From the NCBI GenBank assembly GCA_021797675.1, contig JAJZZH010000078.1, positions 1-33,409 of the forward strand: a DNA stretch of 33,409 bases, written 5' to 3'. Below the pieces are notes generated by a model, which did no database searches, was not told the origin of the DNA, and saw only the letters and a program-made list of their open reading frames with translations. Positions 4,008-31,914 of the stretch are shown in pieces. Positions within the stretch are counted from its first letter, which is position 1. Each line of letters begins with the position of its first letter. Made by a program: the position numbers and the translations under genes. The stretch is from Bacillota bacterium. GTDB lineage: Bacteria > Bacillota > Sulfobacillia > Sulfobacillales > Sulfobacillaceae.

Positions 4008-4797
4008 TTAATACCCGATCGGCGTCGCAATCACATAGTAATCCGTCCCGTTGATCGTCACGTCCGCCTGGGCGCTGCGTTTGTAAGTGTCCGTGCGATA
4101 ATGGATTGTCGAGCACTGCTTGTGGGGATGTTTCTTGGTCGTGGTGTACTGACAGGCCGCCTTCGCTTTCCACGCCACCGTGAGCGAATACGTGCGCCCG
4201 ATGTTCGCATACTGCAGATTCGGCGGATAGCCGTGCCAGGATTCCAAGATGTGGCCGGCGGCGGCGTACCGTCCGATTTGCAGCAAATGCAGCGTCTTGG
4301 GAAAGTAATTGTAGAGATTGCCCGTGTGGGGCACGTACCCGGGATTCCCCGGCGCGGCGGGCACGCCTTGCGTATACGGCAAGCTTGCGGTCAGGGTCAC
4401 ATGATCCACGGTGTCGATGGACGGCAGGGTCGGCGGCGGAACCTGCAACTGCAGTTGGATGGTATCGCCAAATTTGGCTCCGTAGTCCGAATTTTGCACA
4501 AACCACGCGGCAGAGTTGCCCGACAGCGTCGGAGGAATGGTGCAGGTATGCCACACCTGAAAACTACTGCTGGTGGGCACCGTGCCGCCGTTGTATCCGG
4601 TGTTGACCACAGGTCAGAGTCAGCGTCCCCAGCGCGGAGTTTTGACTTTTCGGCTGGGTTGGCTGCACCGTCACGGTGGCGGTGCCCGACACCGATTGTC
4701 CGAGTTCATCGATGGCCGTGACCGTCACCGGTATGCGCCTGCCGAACCGAAATCGGTTGACGCCGGGGAGAAAATTTGCGAGAGTGAAGGTATATTC
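4008..4797 (-). pseudogene. Decayed secreted protein with an Ig-like repeat
   Basis: The 3' part (4610-4008, 200 codons from a GTG) is Thr/Tyr/Pro-rich and reads like an extracellular beta-sheet domain with several Cys. Upstream, in another frame, 4795-4610 encodes a typical bacterial Ig/cadherin-like strand pattern (IPVTVTAIDELGQSVSG, TATVTVQP) leading to TLTLTCG. The two parts join at about 4605 by a single-base shift. A stop codon at about 4797 closes the frame, and no signal peptide remains, so the gene is truncated at its 5' end and frameshifted. The original product was probably a cell-wall or exported protein; the exact family is unknown. Confidence 0.5.
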
Positions 4798-5508: not shown

Positions 5509-7626
5509 CTATGTCAGAATCCGCTGGGCCGTCTGCTCTTCGATGGCTGTTAACATCCATGCCTTTAATGCGGCGTGCTCTGGCCACACCAGGCCAGGGT
5601 CTCGCGCCAGCACTTCGCGTGCCGCGGCGCGGGCCTCTTCTAATAGCGCCAGGTCGCCCAGCGGACGGGCCAACCGAAAGCCCCGCAAGCCATGTTGGCG
5701 GAGACCCAGCACCTCGCCCGGCCCGCGCAGGGCGAGATCCCTTTCCGCCAAATCCAGTCCGTCATGATGCTCGACCAAGGCGGCAAGGCGTTGCTCCGCC
5801 TCGTCAGTCTCGTCGTTGGCCAGCAAGAAACAGACGGCCGGGTGCTCACCCCGCCCCACGCGCCCTCGCAGCTGGTGTAGCTGCGCAATGCCAAAGCGTT
5901 CAGCGTTTTCAACGACCATTACGGTGGCATTGGGAACATCGACGCCAACTTCGATGATATTGGTAGTAACCAATACGTCCAGCCGATGATCCCGGAACGC
6001 CTGCATCACTCCGTTCTTTTCCTCCGCTGGCAACTGCCCGTGCAACAGCCCCACCTTCCACGATGCGGCCGCGCGCATCCCTTCGGCCAATTCGACTGCT
6101 CCCTTAAGACCCAGGTCGGAATTTTGGTGGATCAGGGAACAGACCACATAGGCCTGACGCCCTGAACGCACCGCGTCCGCCACCGCTTGGTAGGCCAGCC
6201 GCCGCTCAGCCTTCCGCAGTTGCATGGTGGTCACCGGTGAACGACCGGGGGGCATCCCTTCAATGCGTGATATCTCCAGGTCACCAAAGACGGTCAGCGC
6301 CATCGTGCGCGGGATGGGAGTTGCCGTCATCACCAGCACATGCGGACCGTTTCCCTTATCCGACAACCCGGCTCTCTGCCGCACACCAAACCGATGTTGT
6401 TCATCCACCACCACGACGCCTAGATCGGCAAACTGCACCTGTTCGGACACCAGCGCCTGGGTGCCTACCACCACGTGCAGGCGATGGCCCCTCATCGCTT
6501 CTAGCGCTGGCCGCCGTCCCGGGGTGCGCCCGGTGAGCAGATGCAAGCGCACTCCCAGCGGCTCCAACAAGGGGGCCAGCACCTGATAATGCTGTTCAGC
6601 CAGGAGCTCGGTGGGGGCCATAAAGGCCGCCTGCCGACCTCCGTCCACCGCGGCCAACAGCGTCAAGGCGGCCACGATAGTCTTGCCGGAACCCACGTCG
6701 CCTTGCAGAAGGCGGGCCATCGGCCTCGCCGAGACCAAGTCGGCCGAAATCTCTTCCCAGGCGGCCTGCTGTCCCCGAGTCAAGGCAAAGGGCAACCGGG
6801 CCAGAAATTTGCGGCTGAGAGGGCCGTCGGGCATCACCCGCACGCTTGGACTGCTCCGCTGGGGTTCCGACATCCAGTGGACGGCGAGACCAATCCGCAA
6901 AAACTCGTCAAACGCCAACCGACGTCGCGCATCTTCCAACTCGGCCTCGTCGGAGGGGAAATGTTCGTGCAACAATGCGCATGGCCGATCCCGCAGTCCA
7001 TGCTCGGACCGCAACCATTCCGGTAAGGGATCGGAGACGTCGGGAATCAATTCCGGCAGCACGCGGTACATCAAATCGCTCAACCAGCGCTGGCTAATCC
7101 CCGCAACCAAGGGGTAGACAGGGATGAGTCCTAGCCGCGGGGATTGGTCCGCGTCGAGCAATTCCAGATCAGGATGCGACATGCTCAGCCACCCTCCGTA
7201 TCGCTCGACGGGCCCGCTCACGGCCACCCGTTGGCCCACCGGCAGCTTTGGGGTCAGCCAGCGGGCATGGAAAAACGTGACGGCCAGCCGTCCGCTGCCG
7301 TCGTCCACCACGACCCGCAGAACTTCCCTCCGGCTCGGGGTTCGCTTGAAAATCGCCTGCTGGATCCGCCCCACGACCAGGCACTCTTGCCCTAACGCAA
7401 GTTCCCCAACCGGCGTAATCTGACACCGGTTCAGATGCCGTCGGGGCCACAGCTCAATCAGATCGCCAACCGTCTGCACACCGAGTTTAGCCAGGGCTTG
7501 GGCACGACGCTTTCCCACCCCCGAAAGCCGAATCACTGGTTCATCGGGCACGATTCGGTGATCCCGCGAGCTGACGCGGCTTCCGACCACCGCGTCGCCA
7601 ACCTGGCCTGGGGCGCCTGCTTCCAT
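5509..7626 (-). CDS. recG: ATP-dependent DNA helicase RecG
   Basis: 705 residues, full length for RecG. An N-terminal wedge/OB-fold region (about 70-165) binds branched DNA; the superfamily-2 helicase core follows with Walker A GDVGSGKT (309-316), the DEQH box at 408-411, TATPIPRT and the arginine-finger motif GRVGRG. RecG reverses stalled forks and processes recombination intermediates together with PriA, encoded 14 kb away in the same cluster. The ATG at 7626 has AGAGGAGG about seven bases upstream. In B. subtilis recG also lies downstream of the asp23-like yloU, but with yloV (fakA) and sda genes between; here those are missing. Confidence 0.95.
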   Translation of the reverse strand: MEAGAPGQVGDAVVGSRVSSRDHRIVPDEPVIRLSGVGKRRAQALAKLGVQTVGDLIELWPRRHLNRCQITPVGELALGQECLVVGRIQQAIFKRTPSRREVLRVVVDDGSGRLAVTFFHARWLTPKLPVGQRVAVSGPVERYGGWLSMSHPDLELLDADQSPRLGLIPVYPLVAGISQRWLSDLMYRVLPELIPDVSDPLPEWLRSEHGLRDRPCALLHEHFPSDEAELEDARRRLAFDEFLRIGLAVHWMSEPQRSSPSVRVMPDGPLSRKFLARLPFALTRGQQAAWEEISADLVSARPMARLLQGDVGSGKTIVAALTLLAAVDGGRQAAFMAPTELLAEQHYQVLAPLLEPLGVRLHLLTGRTPGRRPALEAMRGHRLHVVVGTQALVSEQVQFADLGVVVVDEQHRFGVRQRAGLSDKGNGPHVLVMTATPIPRTMALTVFGDLEISRIEGMPPGRSPVTTMQLRKAERRLAYQAVADAVRSGRQAYVVCSLIHQNSDLGLKGAVELAEGMRAAASWKVGLLHGQLPAEEKNGVMQAFRDHRLDVLVTTNIIEVGVDVPNATVMVVENAERFGIAQLHQLRGRVGRGEHPAVCFLLANDETDEAEQRLAALVEHHDGLDLAERDLALRGPGEVLGLRQHGLRGFRLARPLGDLALLEEARAAAREVLARDPGLVWPEHAALKAWMLTAIEEQTAQRILT

Positions 7627-7967: not shown

Positions 7968-8324
7968 TCAGTCCACCGGAACCACTTCTTCTACATGGAC
8001 GGTAATGCGGCTAGGGCGAAACCCCAGGGCCTGTTCTAGTGCCTGGTTAATGCGGTCAACCAAGGCAACGCCGACCGCATTGAACTGCACCCCGTAGCGC
8101 ACTGCCACATAAATGTCCAGGGCCACCGCCTCACCGTCCGCGGTGACGGTCACTCCGTGCCCGCGGTCTTCTTTGTTGAGCCACTCGCTTAAGTCTTCGC
8201 GAACCCCACGAGAACCCATCTTGACGATTCCCTCGGTGTGCAAGGCCGCGTCTTCGACGATAGTCGCCACGACCTCGTCGTGCACCCGGAGGGTGCCAAA
8301 GGACGTCTTTCGCTCCACAGCCAT
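7968..8324 (-). CDS. Asp23/Gls24-family envelope stress protein (YloU type)
   Basis: 118 residues from the ATG at 8324. The sequence has the Asp23 pattern: a start with FGTLRVHDEVVATIVEDAALHTEGI, a central stretch VALDIYVAVRYGVQFNAVG and an end with PSRITVHVEEVV. Proteins of this family sit at the membrane or cytosol in Gram-positive bacteria and respond to cell-wall stress; the exact role is unresolved. It is divergent from rpmB with about 85 bp between, the same arrangement as yloU/rpmB of B. subtilis. The upstream AAGGGGG is about ten bases from the ATG. A TTG one codon earlier (8327) could also start the frame. Confidence 0.88.
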   Translation of the reverse strand: MAVERKTSFGTLRVHDEVVATIVEDAALHTEGIVKMGSRGVREDLSEWLNKEDRGHGVTVTADGEAVALDIYVAVRYGVQFNAVGVALVDRINQALEQALGFRPSRITVHVEEVVPVD

Positions 8325-8344
8325 CAATCAGTAAGCCCCCTTAC

Positions 8345-8373: not shown

Positions 8374-8409
8374 ACGTAAGCATGAGAGCAAGCAGGGAGG
8401 ATCACCAAA

Positions 8410-8601
8410 GTGGCATATCGTTGCGAGATTTGTGACAAGCATTCGGTGCACGGGAACACCATTAGCCATTCCCACCATAAGACACGGCGGGTGTGGAAAC
8501 CAAATATCCAGCACGTGCGAGCTCGGGTTAACGGCAAGACTCGGCGGATATATGTCTGCACACGATGCTTGCGTTCGGGCCGGGTAGACCGGGCGATCTA
8601 G
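8410..8601 (+). CDS. rpmB: Large ribosomal subunit protein bL28, zinc-binding form
   Basis: 63 residues, normal length for bL28. It has the C+ zinc pattern: CEIC near the N-terminus (residues 5 and 8) and CTRC near the C-terminus, with the family's basic His-rich middle (HSHHKTRR) and RVNGKTRRIYVC. The start is GTG at 8410, preceded by AGGGAGG at 8394-8400. The gene is the only core gene in the cluster on the plus strand, as in B. subtilis. A C+ bL28 often implies a zinc-independent paralogue elsewhere, which cannot be seen here. Confidence 0.95.
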   Translation: MAYRCEICDKHSVHGNTISHSHHKTRRVWKPNIQHVRARVNGKTRRIYVCTRCLRSGRVDRAI

Positions 8602-8664
8602 TAGGCGACGTTCTTTGCTTCTGTACGTGGGGTTCCCGAACGGCTTTGTCGTCCGGGATTTTTC

Positions 8665-9025
8665 ATGAGCCCTAGCGAGTTGCTGGTGCTGACCCCGGTC
8701 TACGATGCCCTGCGGGATTAGGGATACGAGCCCAGGGACGAGCACGTGGTCATCGACGGGATTCCCGTTCAGTTCCTACCAGCATACAATCCGTTGTTGG
8801 AAGAGGCTTTGGAACACGCACGCATGGTTGACGTGGAAGGGATGCCTACCCGTGTCTTGCGGATCGAGTACCTGATCGGTGTGTCCGTTCAAACCGGACG
8901 ATCTAAGGATCGAGAGCGCGTTCAATTGCTCATGGAAGCAGGTAATGTGGATGCGGAAGCTCCTGGCGGAGATTCGTACTCGTCACCATCTCATGTTGCC
9001 GATATTGGGAGGAGAATGGTCGTGA
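8665..9025 (+). pseudogene. Decayed nucleotidyltransferase, toxin-antitoxin-like
   Basis: The frame from ATG 8665 reads MSPSELLVLTPVYDALRD, hits a TAG at 8719, and continues in the same frame with HVVIDGIPVQFLPAYNPL, EALEHARMVDVEGMPTRVL and VQTGRSKDRERVQLLMEAG, a pattern I know from a family of small nucleotidyltransferase-like proteins. A one-base shift near 8959 is needed to reach LLAEIRTRHHLMLPILGGEW and the stop at 9023-9025. The N-terminal nucleotide-binding half is missing. One stop, one frameshift and a 5' truncation make it non-functional. Confidence 0.55.
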
Positions 9026-9305
9026 ACGCCCCGCACGCCGCCTGCAAGCGGCTCTTGCAGCGAAACAGCGGCGCCGGCAGGAACTTGCGGCGTTGCCGTA
9101 TGAAGAGAAACTGCGCATTTTATTGCGCTTGCAACAAATGGGCGATATCATCCTCCAAACCCGCGGGGCATCGGCTCGTGCCTGGCCGATGGACGAGAAA
9201 ACGCTCATGCCCTTTCCTGCCGTATCACCGCTTGACGTTAGCCGGGTAAATTCGGGGGACGTCGAACTCAGACGCGCGGACAATGCCTGCTTGTCACGAG
9301 AATAG
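9012..9305 (+). pseudogene. Remnant of the partner gene of the nucleotidyltransferase
   Basis: Starting as the preceding pseudogene ends, one frame reads ERPARRLQAALAAKQRRRQE then LAALPYEEKLRILLRLQQMG. The basic helix followed by LPYEEKLRIL is typical of the short partner protein encoded next to such nucleotidyltransferases. No start codon lies in frame at the right place (the first ATG is 9093, inside the motif), and the frame runs on past the expected end near RG. It is probably dead together with its neighbour. Confidence 0.45.
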
Positions 9306-9556
9306 TCTATACCTACAATCCTGTTGTATTCGATGGAGCGTTCGATGCCATCGACGAATGACCCATTCGCACCCGGCTGGTGCCGAGCCAGGAATACCTT
9401 CCATATCTGGGCGACGGCGTCCGCATCACGCGCCCTCGAGCGAGGATGCCCCATCCAATCAGTCTATCCCGGGGCTAGAGTGAACCGTCTGACTACTCAA
9501 CGATGGTATTCGTAATCGTTTCGTCCGATAACGAACTGACGTCCTCGTGTACTAGT
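9306..9556. other. Gene-poor stretch, possible coding debris
   Basis: On the plus strand a short stretch reads VVFDGAFDAIDE, stop, then TRLVPSQEYLPYLGDGVRIT, which looks like the remains of a protein gene of unknown family. No intact frame, promoter or RNA gene is visible. Confidence 0.3.
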
Positions 9557-10828
9557 CTAATGGATAGTCAGTTGGCGGCGCCCCGCTTCCCTAAGGGCAT
9601 CGCGATCATCAGGATGGGCGAGGCCAATCAGCTGCTGGGCGCGCTGGGCCAGCGATAGGCCGTGAAGGTTGGCGACCCCGTATTCGGTAACGACGAATTG
9701 GACGTGGTTGCGGGTGGTAGTGACCGCCGCACCCGGATGCAGGGTTGGGACAATGCGGGGTTGCCCGGCCGAAGTTCTCGAAGGCAGGGCGATCACCGAG
9801 AAGCCTCCCGGTGACAGACTGGAGCCGCGAACGAAATCCATTTGCCCGCCGACACCGGACAGCATACGACGCCCTACCGATTCGGCGGCGACCTGGCCGG
9901 TTAGATCGACCTCCACCGCGGAGTTGATCGAGATCATCCGCGGGTGGCGGCGGATGACCGCGGTGTCATTGGTATAATCTACGGGACGCATGGCGACCGC
10001 GGGATTGTTGTCCATAAAGTCATACAGCGATTGACTGCCGAAGGCAAAGGTGCAAACTAGGCGATCCCGATCCATGGCCTTGTACCGTCCGGTTATGACC
10101 CCTTGCCGCACCAGCGGCACCACACTGTCCGAGATCATTTCGCTGTGAATGCCCAGATCGTGATGGTCCGCCAGCATGGAGAGCACCAGATCCGGAATTG
10201 CGCCGATACCCAATTGCAGCGTCGCCCGATCGGGAATTAGAGCCGCGACCTGGGCCGCAATTTTGCGGCGCACCGGATCTTGCGGAGCCGCATCCCGTGT
10301 GTACAGCGACCGTGCATTCCATATCCCGTAAGTGATCGCCGAGGCGGGAATTTCGGCCGAACCAAGGGTGCGGGGCACCATCGGGTTGACGGCGGCCACC
10401 ACCACTCGCGCCTTGCGGATGGCTGCTAGAGCGCTCTCTACGCTCGTACCCAGGCTGACAAAACCGTGGCGGTCGGGGGGGGTGACGTGAATTAAGGCGT
10501 AGTCGAGCGGCAAGTTGTTTTGCACGAAGGATGGGATGTCGGACAAGAACAGAGGGAGGTAGGAGGCTTGACCGGAATCGACGTACTCTCGCGTGTTTTG
10601 GCCGATGAACCACGAAATATCATGGAGGTGTCCAGATAACAAGGGGTCCAGGTGGGGAACCGGTCCTTCCAGATGGATATGATATAACGAGACCTCGGTA
10701 AGGCCCAGGGCTTTCGCCGACAGCGCCTTCAAGAGTGGCGTAGGAGTCATCGCGATCCCTTGGACATAGACATTCATGCCCGAGCGCAAGTTGTGAAACG
10801 CGGTGTCGCAATCTACCATCTTCACCAC
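9557..10828 (-). CDS. Acetyl-CoA hydrolase/transferase family CoA-transferase
   Basis: 423 residues, the family's usual length. Visible hallmarks are GIGAIPDLVLSML (CoA/ADP-fold glycine motif), GIHSEMISD with the Glu expected to form the glutamyl-CoA thioester, and the C-terminal VVTEYGVANLHGLSLAQRA. Enzymes of this family move CoA between acetyl-CoA and organic acids (for example 4-hydroxybutyrate or succinate); substrate cannot be told from sequence alone. The start is GTG at 10828 with GAGGAGGG just upstream. It follows the EPSP-synthase-like gene on the same strand after 88 bp and may be co-transcribed. It is not part of the conserved core cluster. Confidence 0.85.
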   Translation of the reverse strand: MVKMVDCDTAFHNLRSGMNVYVQGIAMTPTPLLKALSAKALGLTEVSLYHIHLEGPVPHLDPLLSGHLHDISWFIGQNTREYVDSGQASYLPLFLSDIPSFVQNNLPLDYALIHVTPPDRHGFVSLGTSVESALAAIRKARVVVAAVNPMVPRTLGSAEIPASAITYGIWNARSLYTRDAAPQDPVRRKIAAQVAALIPDRATLQLGIGAIPDLVLSMLADHHDLGIHSEMISDSVVPLVRQGVITGRYKAMDRDRLVCTFAFGSQSLYDFMDNNPAVAMRPVDYTNDTAVIRRHPRMISINSAVEVDLTGQVAAESVGRRMLSGVGGQMDFVRGSSLSPGGFSVIALPSRTSAGQPRIVPTLHPGAAVTTTRNHVQFVVTEYGVANLHGLSLAQRAQQLIGLAHPDDRDALREAGRRQLTIH

Positions 10829-10916: not shown

Positions 10917-12308
10917 CTAATTGGGCAAGATCGATGCTCCCCTGAGCGTGGCAGCGCTTAGAACCGGTTCAGGCGGTTGGCTGGCCGTGCTAAAAGTCTC
11001 CAACTTCATCTTCATTCCCTGCGCGCGGATCAAGGCAGTCAATTCCGAATAGGTGGCTAAGAAGCTCCACTCCGGCGGCAGCGTGCTGGGGCGGTCGGCC
11101 GTGATCGCCGCCAACAGGAGCCCCATGAAGTGATGGGCGTCGAGCATGGCAGGCAGGTCGCCGCCTTGCAGTCGGTCTACACCCAGCACGGTCAGACGCC
11201 TGCCACCGCTAGCCGGCACGGGGACCACCTCGGCTCCCATTTGGCGGAGTGCCCGCTGAAACTCGATGCTTGCGGGCAGGTTAAACAGGGGCTGACGGGA
11301 GCGCAATACGGTGGTGCCGCTCGCGGTGGCGCCGAGCGTCATCAGCAGGGGGACAACTTGAGCCATGCCGTCGACATCAACCGTGGTACCGACAAGTCGT
11401 CCCGGGTTCCGTACGCCGATGGTCCCACCGTCCTGATTATTGCTGATCGCGACGCCCATCTCTCGCAAAATCGTAACCAGCCGCTCCATCAGGCTGGGCA
11501 GCGCGTGCCGGCCACGGACGATCTCCGTGGTGCCGGGTTGGGCAGCCGTCAACGCCAGCACAAAAGCCGCAACCCACGGATCGGGGCACGCATCCACCTG
11601 AGCCGCTCGATAGGTTTGCGGAGCATCCAAGCGCCACCATCCGCGCGACTCGTCGGAATCTACGAAAATACCGAATCGCCGCAACAGTTGGGTGGTTACG
11701 ATCGCGTCGGCCCCGGCTGAAAACGTGTCGGCCAATTTAATGGTGACCGGAGCGCGGGCTAAGGGAGCAACCATCAGCACCGAGGAGACCCAACGGCTTA
11801 GGAGCGGTGAGAGATTAATCGCCCCGCCTTCGGGCTGACCAGGAAAGGCGCGCACGCTCTTGGATGTGGCGTCAACACTGAAATGGAGACCAATGGCTTC
11901 CAGCGCCTTGACCAACGCCGTCACCGGGTATGCTAGTCGCCCGGGGTGAGGTTCAAACACCACGGGGCCGTTTTGCACCCTGGCACCCATGGCCAAAATC
12001 CACGGAAGGGCGCCGCAGTCGGGATCGCCTAAATAAATGTGCTGGTCAGGATGTCGAAGCCAGAGGTCGCCGCCGTCCACCACGTAGCCGTCCGTCCGCC
12101 GCACAATGGACGCCCCCAGGCGCTTTAACGCCTCCGCCGTATTGTGCACCGCGGGTGGGGTGCATCCGTCACCCGTTTCAATCCAACTCTCGCCCCGAGC
12201 CACCGAGGCCAAGATGAGCGCCCTTTGCATGCGCGCTGCGGATGCCGGCAACGGTACCTCGTGCATCAACGGGGGCTCCATTGGGGTTACTCGTAATCGC
12301 ATTTCCAC
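10917..12308 (-). CDS. EPSP-synthase-like protein with degraded active-site motifs
   Basis: 463 residues from a GTG at 12308, which has GGGGAGGA seven bases upstream; an earlier ATG pair at 12341 would add eleven residues. The fold is that of 3-phosphoshikimate 1-carboxyvinyltransferase: MQRALILASVARGESWIETG, ALKRLGASI, VSSVLMVAPLARAPV, and QRALRQMGAEVVPV all align to the repeated beta-alpha-beta units. But the N-terminal Lys-Ser motif (SKS in AroA) reads PASAAR, the GNSGTT-R loop reads GDPDCGALPW, and the SSQ triad reads LSRW. These residues bind PEP and shikimate-3-phosphate, so catalysis of the normal shikimate step is unlikely. It may be a paralogue with another substrate; a true aroA would be expected elsewhere. 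Confidence 0.65.
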   Translation of the reverse strand: MEMRLRVTPMEPPLMHEVPLPASAARMQRALILASVARGESWIETGDGCTPPAVHNTAEALKRLGASIVRRTDGYVVDGGDLWLRHPDQHIYLGDPDCGALPWILAMGARVQNGPVVFEPHPGRLAYPVTALVKALEAIGLHFSVDATSKSVRAFPGQPEGGAINLSPLLSRWVSSVLMVAPLARAPVTIKLADTFSAGADAIVTTQLLRRFGIFVDSDESRGWWRLDAPQTYRAAQVDACPDPWVAAFVLALTAAQPGTTEIVRGRHALPSLMERLVTILREMGVAISNNQDGGTIGVRNPGRLVGTTVDVDGMAQVVPLLMTLGATASGTTVLRSRQPLFNLPASIEFQRALRQMGAEVVPVPASGGRRLTVLGVDRLQGGDLPAMLDAHHFMGLLLAAITADRPSTLPPEWSFLATYSELTALIRAQGMKMKLETFSTASQPPEPVLSAATLRGASILPN

Positions 12309-12341
12309 GCGAAATTCCTCCCCTCGACCGACGATCATCAT

Positions 12342-12939
12342 TGACCTCCGCGTTGTCCCTCACTGGTGAGGCTCTACGCCTTCAGCTTACCGAGTCCTGA
12401 TGCTCTCGGCGACGCTCTTTCGGCCGAAATAATCCCGTCCGAACGGCGTATCGATCCTTCCCCAGGCGCGGTCATCCAGCGGCTTATGGTCGAAGGCGGG
12501 AGGTGAATCGCGGCCGATCAGCGGCGTCACGTTGGCACGGTCTCTCGTGGCGCAGCGTCCCGTCTGAATTTCCGGGTAACGGGTTCGGTATGCCACCCAA
12601 GGTCTTCCCCCCAAAACAAGGGAACTGGTCAGGTCGCGCCGTCGGCCTTCTAAACGAACTCCAGCGGCCTTGGGGAACCGTCCAACGCCGAGCAGGGATG
12701 GTGGTAGCCATCCCTGTCGTTCGCATCGACCTAACGTCGATCCACGATCTCTTGCCGCAAGAGTCGGTGACGAGGGGGAGCCGGTGATCTTGCCCCATCG
12801 CCGGTAGCCCTTCGCCGAGCGTTGCCCCTGCTTATGGGCAAACAGCGATAATCTCCCCGCGATGGAACACGTTGGCGATGGACGCCATATTCAGCCATGG
12901 GTATCACTCAGGCACTCCCGCTAGAAATGCAAGACGTGG
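12342..12939. other. Noncoding or decayed stretch upstream of the EPSP-synthase-like gene
   Basis: About 600 bp with no credible gene. Short open frames (for example 12503-12787 plus and 12484-12798 minus) have Trp/Arg/Pro-rich translations of the kind produced by shadow frames or structured DNA. A 9-bp perfect hairpin lies at 12693-12716, and the telomere-like array follows at its right end. Confidence 0.45.
12693..12716. repeat. Perfect 9-bp hairpin
   Basis: CAGGGATGG at 12693-12701 pairs exactly with CCATCCCTG at 12708-12716 around a six-base loop. There is no T-run on either side, so it is not a classic intrinsic terminator. It could be the end of a decayed element or a structured RNA; nothing decides this. 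Confidence 0.5.
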
Positions 12940-12980
12940 TTAGGGTTAGGGTTAGGGTTAGGGTTAGGGTTAGGGTTAGG
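12940..12980. repeat. Telomere-like (TTAGGG)n tandem array
   Basis: Six perfect TTAGGG units plus TTAGG, 41 bp without a single mismatch. The plus strand carries six GGG tracts spaced by TTA, enough for a G-quadruplex. It is interstitial, flanked by ordinary bacterial sequence, and lies in a gene-free stretch between the EPSP-synthase-like gene and spoVM. Confidence 0.95.
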
Positions 12981-13037
12981 AAGCAAGATGCGACCAATGA
13001 GGTTCACCGCGGGCCCACCGTGTCTGTCAGTTGACGG

Positions 13038-13277
13038 CTAGGACGAAGGTCTCCGGGTGAAGCGGAAGGCTCCGGAACACCGTGAGGCACTGCCGCTTCC
13101 GACAGCAAATCGGCCCGGTTTTCGTGCTAGGAAGGATGCCAACACGCCTCGGAACCCGTCGCAACGGCGGCGAGAAGTTCCACCCGGTGCGCCACCTGCG
13201 CGATCCGGGCGGAACCACAACCCGCAAGCTGCCAGCGCCATCCCCGACACCACCGCCGCACCAACCCCGCAGTCCAT
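13038..13277 (-). CDS. Possible small membrane-anchored protein
   Basis: 79 codons from an ATG at 13277 that has AGAGGAAG five bases upstream, 22 bp after the spoVM stop. Residues ~3-22 form a hydrophobic segment (VGAAVVSGMALAACGLWF); the remainder is Arg/Gly/Ser-rich and of low plausibility. An alternative frame overlaps it. Good ribosome binding site and operon position argue for it; composition argues against. Confidence 0.25.
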   Translation of the reverse strand: MDCGVGAAVVSGMALAACGLWFRPDRAGGAPGGTSRRRCDGFRGVLASFLARKPGRFAVGSGSASRCSGAFRFTRRPSS

Positions 13278-13299
13278 TGCGCTTCCTCTCACCGCCCCC

Positions 13300-13386
13300 C
13301 TATCGTCGCTCGCGCGCCCAAAACAAAAGAAAAAACTGCAAAATCTTGCCGACGACCCGCGGAACCTTCACCACTTGTACACGCAC
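13300..13386 (-). CDS. spoVM: SpoVM, stage V sporulation membrane-anchoring peptide
   Basis: 28 codons from a GTG at 13386, with AAGGGGG about nine bases upstream. The peptide MRVQVVKVPRVVGKILQFF... lines up residue for residue with B. subtilis SpoVM (26 residues): basic residue 2, Lys7, Pro9, basic residue 10, Gly13 and Ile15 are shared, then a hydrophobic amphipathic face and a basic C-terminus. SpoVM inserts shallowly in the forespore membrane, recognises its curvature and recruits SpoIVA to start coat assembly. The place, downstream of rpe and before the rpmB/asp23 group, is the same as in B. subtilis (rpe-thiN-spoVM-rpmB). Too short for routine gene calling. Confidence 0.8.
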   Translation of the reverse strand: MRVQVVKVPRVVGKILQFFLLFWARERR

Positions 13387-13414
13387 GCCCCACGCCCCCT
13401 TCATTCACGGCCGG

Positions 13415-13639
13415 TTATCGTGTCGATACCAAACGCCAACCGGCCCAAATCATCGCGGCACCGATCAAGATCGGTCCCAGTCCAGACCACACCAGCCACA
13501 GCCCCACGCCCAAGGGCCACAACCACAAGGGAAAAATCTTGATGATTAGGACCGCGCCGGAGAGTCCCACTCCCACCCCCATCAGCCGCCGGTACAGCCG
13601 TTGCCGAGAGGTGATCCAACCACGCCGGAGAGGTCGCAC
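13415..13639 (-). CDS. Small two-segment membrane protein
   Basis: 74 codons. After a basic N-terminus there are two hydrophobic segments: LMGVGVGLSGAVLIIKIFPL and the Trp/Leu-rich LWPLGVGLWLVW...ILIGAAMIWAGW, ending in a short basic tail. It lies between rpe (79 bp upstream) and spoVM (28 bp downstream), where B. subtilis has thiN. The start is uncertain: GTG/ATG choices at the N-terminus lack a strong ribosome binding site, and Met20 could start a shorter protein. Function unknown; operon position suggests expression with rpe and spoVM. Confidence 0.55.
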   Translation of the reverse strand: MRPLRRGWITSRQRLYRRLMGVGVGLSGAVLIIKIFPLWLWPLGVGLWLVWSGLGPILIGAAMIWAGWRLVSTR

Positions 13640-13717
13640 AACCTCACCTCCTACGCCGTTCGCACGCCTTGCTCACTCCTTCTCAGCGTACGAAGACGAG
13701 AGGCAAAAGGTGTCTTG

Positions 13718-14404
13718 TCACCCCTTGCGCATTTGTTGAATTGCGCTCCCGGGGTCTGCGCTGCCGAAAATTGCTGTGCCGGCCACTAACACGTCGGCTC
13801 CCGCCGATTTCACCAAAGGGGCCGTTTTAAGAGTAATTCCTCCGTCCACCTGGATCAGGGGACGTTGCCGGTCTCCGCGCAATCGCGCCATCCGCCGCAC
13901 CTTATCCACCGCTCGCGGCCAAAAGGCTTGCCCGCCAAAGCCGGGATTAACGCTCATAATCAGCACCAGGTCCAGTTCATCAACCATGTCCACCAGCGCC
14001 TCCACAGGCGTCGCCGGATTCAGCGCCACCCCGGCCAGGGCGCCCGTCTCGTGGATCTGGCCGACCACCCGTTCTAAATGCGGACACGCCTCATAGTGTA
14101 CGGTAAGGCTATCGGCTCCTGCGTCGCGAAATGCCTTGATAAACCGTTCGGGTTCCACCACCATCATATGCACGTCAAAGGGCAACTCAGTCGTCTTTCG
14201 CACCGCCTCGACCACCATCGGTCCGATGGTAATATTTGGTACGAATCGCCCGTCCATGATGTCTAAGTGCAGCCAATCTGCGGTCTGGCTCACACCTACC
14301 ACCGACTCCGCCAACCGTCCGAAGTCGGCGGATAGGAGACTAGGCGCTATCCGTATCCGACGGATGCCCTGTTCATTCTGTGCCATGCTACCGTTTGCCT
14401 CCAT
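13718..14404 (-). CDS. rpe: Ribulose-phosphate 3-epimerase
   Basis: A TIM-barrel of 228 residues (222 from the second Met). Family hallmarks: APSLLSADF, HLDIMDGRFVPN with the metal/catalytic Asp, FDVHMMV, MSVNPGFGGQAF (phosphate loop) and QVDGGI with the second catalytic Asp. It interconverts ribulose-5-phosphate and xylulose-5-phosphate in the pentose phosphate pathway. The ATG at 14404 is nine bases after the rsgA stop but has a weak ribosome binding site; the ATG at 14386 has GGAGG twelve bases upstream and begins nearer to homology, so either may be used. It follows rsgA as in B. subtilis. Confidence 0.95.
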   Translation of the reverse strand: MEANGSMAQNEQGIRRIRIAPSLLSADFGRLAESVVGVSQTADWLHLDIMDGRFVPNITIGPMVVEAVRKTTELPFDVHMMVVEPERFIKAFRDAGADSLTVHYEACPHLERVVGQIHETGALAGVALNPATPVEALVDMVDELDLVLIMSVNPGFGGQAFWPRAVDKVRRMARLRGDRQRPLIQVDGGITLKTAPLVKSAGADVLVAGTAIFGSADPGSAIQQMRKG

Positions 14405-27665: not shown

Positions 27666-27793
27666 TTAGGAGCCTGTCCATCAATCCCAATCCCGACCAT
27701 CTGCAATACAACATCTAGGACCAGCGATTGACCATGCGCCATAAATATTGAAATGGGTACGGTTCCCGGTCCGATAAATGGACAAACTCCTAG
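27666..27793. mobile_element. MITE family 1, copy B
   Basis: 120-bp element (27670-27789) with terminal repeats GAGCCTGTCCATCAAT and, from the right, GAGTTTGTCCATTTAT. The flanking tetranucleotides are TTAG and CTAG, i.e. a CTAG duplication with one change. It shares its interior with copy C (including a 25-bp identical run), in inverted orientation. It exactly fills the convergent gap between the DedA gene and dapF, where its dyad could act as a terminator for both. Confidence 0.75.
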
Positions 27794-27804
27794 GCCGGGC
27801 CACC

Positions 27805-31480: not shown

Positions 31481-31790
31481 AAGGTTCCCTCCCCTCTGAG
31501 GTCGATACCAAGGTATGTCCCCTGGAGGACAAGAAGAACCAAGCCTAGGGGGATGCCAGCCAGGGATTTACGGCAGCGCAGATCGCCGGACCCTGCGGAG
31601 AATTCTTGCCCGTCGCCCATCCATGGGCCATCTTCAAGAAGCCCCGGCGGAGATGCGTGGGGATCGCGACCCGCACCGCGCAGGAAGAACCATGGCCTCC
31701 ATGAGTCCGGCCCCCCGCCCAGGGGCTCACCGGCAAGCTCCTTAGGCTGCAACACTTCAATCTACGTTCCCCATGCGGAATTCGACCGGT
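31481..31790. other. Leader region of the ATPase without a recognised gene
   Basis: 310 bp. The minus frame 31755-31405 is open and has a hydrophobic run (LGLVLLVLQGTYLG) but mostly Gly/Pro/Arg-rich sequence and overlaps the ATPase start, so I do not call it. No clear promoter motif. Confidence 0.3.
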
Positions 31791-31914
31791 CTGGGAGGTT
31801 GTCCGTTTATACGACCGGGAACCGTAGCGTGTCAATATTTATCGCTCATGGTCAATCATTGGCCCTATATGTTGTATTGCAGATGGTCGGGATTTGGATT
31901 TGACAGGCTCTAGG
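31791..31914. mobile_element. MITE family 1, copy C (inverted relative to B)
   Basis: 116-bp element (31795-31910) whose reverse complement aligns with copy B over its length, with runs such as GATTGACCATG and ACGGTTCCCGGTC preserved. Terminal repeats are more worn (GAGGTTGTCC; GAGCCTGTCA) and the flanking CTGG/CTAG is an imperfect duplication with one base lost at the right edge. This is the oldest-looking of the three copies. Confidence 0.7.

Follow-up and report, generated by a model that had tools for sequence, protein, structure and literature searches.

A perfect tandem array of the vertebrate telomere unit TTAGGG was found in the window, which is the whole contig C200 (33,409 bp) of the 4.06-Mb draft genome G000. 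We consider this array to be an ordinary hexanucleotide microsatellite (probability about 0.8), whose identity with the vertebrate telomere repeat is coincidental and which serves neither a telomeric or maintenance function nor a dedicated regulatory one. On the best reading it is young and effectively neutral.

The array, non-coding and 43 bp long, consists of GG, six TTAGGG units and TTAGG, corresponding to 7.2 copies of GGTTAG with no mismatches (100% match). It is thus perfect, as the initial annotation had described it, and slightly longer than the 41 bp given there. Six GGG tracts are present, with an additional GG at either end. Such a head-to-tail run of identical short units is far beyond the length expected by chance in a 33-kb sequence. 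Searches with Rfam (gathering threshold and E 0.5) and ARAGORN gave no match in the array region. The features of the window are listed in Table 1.

Table 1. Features of the array locus, in order of position in the window.
Feature	Position	Strand	Remarks
recG helicase gene	5509–7626	−	Name based on the recognised sequence and the conserved position; in most relatives close to hslO or rpe
Asp23-family gene	7968–8327	−	
Block matching the sequence directly after hslO in G001 (probably rpmB)	8405–8601	−	84.8% identity to G001 C179:12108–12304
Acetyl-CoA hydrolase/transferase gene	9557–10828	−	Next to the AroA-like gene in both this genome and G001
EPSP-synthase-like (AroA-family) gene	10917–12341	−	G001 counterpart 71% identical, on a separate contig
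Lineage-specific filler between blocks not adjacent in relatives	12500–13154		Contains the array and a dispersed-repeat copy; G001 homology ends at 13155 (rpe side, contig C179) and at 12499 (other side, contig C55)
Dispersed repeat	12620–12790		Perfect hairpin core AGGGATGGTGGTAGCCATCCCT (12694–12715); related copies at other genomic sites
Perfect hexanucleotide array GG(TTAGGG)6TTAGG	12938–12980	+	7.2 copies; + strand G-rich, CCCTAA on the strand of the neighbouring genes
hslO (Hsp33) 5′ remnant, truncated, frame disrupted	13155–13277	−	About the first 40 codons; tblastn and alignment to intact G001 hslO: 65% over 20 aa, indels relative to G001
Short membrane-protein-like ORF, 74 aa	13415–13639	−	Conserved; lies between rpe and hslO in G001 as well
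rpe, ribulose-phosphate 3-epimerase	13718–14404	−	

Frequency of the motif in this and other genomes

A genome-wide search for TTAGGG arrays, a check which the initial annotation had called for, showed the array to be the only one: (TTAGGG)3 or longer occurred at a single site in the 4,057,591-bp draft (242 contigs), and the reversed motif used as a control had no match in the same sequence. The search thus revealed one array, well inside its contig, and not the terminal or numerous internal arrays expected of a telomeric repeat. We know of no telomerase-maintained TTAGGG chromosome ends in this bacterial group. No such array was found in 60 relatives, among them the sole congener, G001.

Other units form comparable arrays both in this genome and in sequence collections. 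A background repeat survey of a 763-kb sample of the genome yielded perfect arrays of a heptamer (CATACTT, 5.7 copies, 40 bp), an octamer (TGTCATCG, 3.9 copies, 31 bp) and a nonamer (CATGACCCG, 3.3 copies, 30 bp). The heptamer array is located at positions 4346–4385 of locus L119 (contig C20). With its 43 bp, the TTAGGG array was the longest perfect array in the 763-kb sample, slightly above the heptamer.

The telomere unit was not favoured over hexamers of the same base composition, since these were equally common or commoner. In IMG/VR, which the composition-matched controls cover, stretches of five units numbered 9 for TTAGGG, 8 for GGGATT, 14 for TTGAGG and 20 for TAGTGG. Among 398 genomes of the same phylum, for which the reversed unit served as the control, (TTAGGG)4 was present in two (one of them the genome studied here) and the reversed unit in one. 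Neither data set revealed an enrichment of TTAGGG, and the link to vertebrate telomeres suggested by the initial annotation is therefore not supported. Across 84,980 species genomes, (TTAGGG)5 was detected in about 55, scattered over unrelated phyla, with 34 of the 58 stretches in contig interiors and 24 at 150 bp or less from a contig end. Several of the interior stretches belong to long contigs of isolates, e.g., Edwardsiella, Vibrio, Legionella, and Rhizobium. A mobile array sharing flanks with other TTAGGG arrays was also considered and rejected: the matches inspected were confined to the repeat. One match, in Saccharibacter (L048), extended beyond the repeat for some 20 bases, with mismatches, and was attributed to chance.

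Bacterial genomes are known to contain hexanucleotide repeats, if sparsely (PMC12699852; PMC7015867), and hexamers are reported to exceed simulated numbers in most phyla of prokaryotes (PMC12699852). The array resembles these microsatellites in being a short perfect direct repeat of a kind found occasionally in bacterial genomes (PMC7015867, PMC12699852), but it exceeds most of those in this genome in length, and its unit happens to be that of vertebrate telomeres. An internal TTAGGG array is also what defines the likeness to eukaryotic interstitial telomeric sequences; here, however, the genome contains no second such array, and the motif is no commoner than composition-matched hexamers. Our literature search found no paper on point about TTAGGG arrays in bacterial chromosomes.

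Replacement of hslO and origin of the array

The locus was compared with that of the congener G001. Beyond rpe and the 74-aa ORF, the G001 sequence continues into an intact hslO, whereas the window keeps about 40 codons of this chaperone gene, with indels. HSP33 was detected in every one of the 24 relatives searched, mostly next to rpe or recG. A search of the genome for a second hslO copy gave nothing convincing: the congener protein had no significant match, and an HSP33 match on contig C166 (21.3 bits over 80 positions) was rejected as probably spurious. The 3′ part of hslO was not found on any other contig of the genome. On the other side of the filler, homology to G001 runs from 12499 to 9557 and spans the EPSP-synthase-like and acetyl-CoA hydrolase genes, which lie on contig C55 in G001. 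Ancestral synteny returns at 8601–8405 with the match to the post-hslO sequence of G001 (probably rpmB, going by the order in which these genes usually occur), followed by asp23 and recG. The outer blocks match contig C179 and the inner block C55; the comparison shows that hslO has been lost and that a segment of about 4.5 kb with the AroA-like and acetyl-CoA hydrolase genes now stands in its place.

The filler containing the array is 655 bp long, and its counterpart in relatives is limited to the dispersed repeat and short matches near the edge of the hslO remnant. Insertion of the segment by a transposon via long repeats joining this filler and that at 8602–9556 was considered; only chance-level matches were obtained. 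The dispersed repeat was likewise rejected as the source of the array, its other copies being devoid of TTAGGG arrays.

Several further features of the window and its relatives were recorded. Copies of the dispersed repeat occur on contigs C160, C138, C9, and C141 of the same genome and at contig ends on C180, C137, C2, and C54; three copies are found no more than about 65 bases from a contig end. The repeat, with its conserved hairpin core, is also present in G001 and G010, and the window copy had no match in Rfam. The 74-aa ORF is hydrophobic, has a GTG start and shows high identity with the congener copy. In the relative G006, a Dak/FakA-like gene is located next to asp23; none is present between asp23 and recG in the window. 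At 1006–2604 (− strand) a TnpB-like protein with a Cas12f1-like TNB domain is encoded. An inverted repeat pair of about 110 bases (27683–27798 and 31786–31900, 85–90% complementary, about 4 kb apart) encloses a P-type ATPase gene.

The initial annotation had warned of contamination. An assembly artefact, or a eukaryotic telomere contaminant joined into the contig, could be suspected in a 242-contig draft, and the share of (TTAGGG)5 stretches close to contig ends in the species genomes is that expected for broken or contaminant joins. The present array, however, is 12.9 kb and 20.4 kb away from the contig ends, and tetranucleotide profiles of its two sides agree (r = 0.96). Bacterial DNA lies on either side, as the initial annotation had stated. 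The outer flanks, rpe with the 5′ end of hslO on one side and rpmB, asp23 and recG on the other, have kept the order and orientation that they have as ancestral neighbours. Two separate errors would thus be required for a chimera. In addition, the 3′ part of hslO is absent from every other contig. This two-sided synteny argues against contamination; judged from sequence, a telomere contaminant or a simple chimera appears unlikely, and we regard the artefact explanation as a whole as very improbable. An assembly error confined to the array itself is conceivable.

The array might instead be a repair scar. In that case hslO would have been removed and the AroA-like segment joined at a break, and templated or slipping synthesis during the sealing of this break would have produced the array at once, not gradually by later slippage. 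Its location inside the filler of about 650 bp, between blocks that are not adjacent in relatives, and its distance of 175 bp to the point where homology to hslO stops are consistent with this origin. Yet the array touches neither block edge, the unrelated sequence in between measuring 175 bp on one side and about 440 bp on the other, and the filler also contains the dispersed repeat and so has another history. We consider such a one-step origin unlikely.

The microsatellite reading is supported by the site of the array: non-coding filler beside a decayed gene, unique to this genome. The truncation of hslO and the placement of the AroA-like/acetyl-CoA hydrolase segment left several hundred bases of unconstrained DNA, as the comparison with G001 shows. 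There, slippage during replication may have expanded a chance seed of about two GGTTAG units until 7.2 identical copies were reached. That simple tandem repeats of bacteria change in length is established (reviewed in PMC7015867). The lack of point mutations would mean that the array is young or that slippage turnover is ongoing. The initial annotation had offered recent expansion or active maintenance to account for the perfect identity. The former agrees with our data, the array being perfect, unique to this genome and probably young; dedicated upkeep is not needed, because young or still-slipping arrays are perfect anyway. Three points count against the neutral microsatellite reading: the growth of the array is deduced from a single genome of the species; the array is the longest perfect one in the 763-kb sample, if only slightly longer than the 40-bp heptamer; and an array of six GGG tracts able to form a G-quadruplex could affect the cell even if it is not conserved.

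G-quadruplex potential and regulation

The six GGG tracts, separated by three-base loops, were predicted to fold. When the strand was read as RNA, the G-quadruplex energy model favoured folding (−15.5 vs. −0.6 kcal/mol). G-quadruplex formation in single strands is thus possible, and the initial annotation was in principle right on this point.

A role of the array as a functional G-quadruplex or slippage-variable element tuning transcription or recombination was weighed on this basis. The nearest described G-quadruplex arrays are the GGGNATC heptamers of Xanthomonas and Nostoc, which adopt quadruplex structures in vitro and are situated close to ORFs (PMC4692102); like the array, they are G-rich, tandem and non-coding, with at least four G tracts. 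Those heptamers, however, are abundant genome-wide and preferentially located at 50 bp or less from ORFs (PMC4692102), whereas the array studied here is a single hexamer array, absent from relatives and situated in a scar unique to this genome. It is about 600 bp away from the nearest downstream gene start, that of the EPSP-synthase-like ORF (12341 or 12308), and at least 435 bp from the nearest upstream ORF end. A promoter and terminator scan of 12200–13800, which covers the sigma-70 type, detected no promoter-like or terminator-like site. Regulation of the EPSP-synthase-like gene, proposed by the initial annotation, was not supported either, given this distance, the lack of a sigma-70 promoter-like site and the end of upstream homology at 12499, far from reaching the array. 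A G-quadruplex role is without support because the array is far from genes, without promoter-like sites and without conservation, and we consider it clearly improbable.

The reverse order of events appears extremely unlikely to us. In this case the array, as a G-quadruplex that stalls replication or marks a site prone to rearrangement, would have brought about the replacement of hslO in this lineage instead of arising after it.

For the microsatellite reading, the wider meaning is one of caution: where a bacterial contig contains a perfect telomere-like array, neither contamination nor a telomere-like system has to be assumed. About one species genome in 1,500 searched holds an array of the (TTAGGG)5 type, and other hexamers behave alike. 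The more informative facts at this locus are the lineage-specific loss of hslO and the altered placement of the AroA-like/acetyl-CoA hydrolase gene pair.
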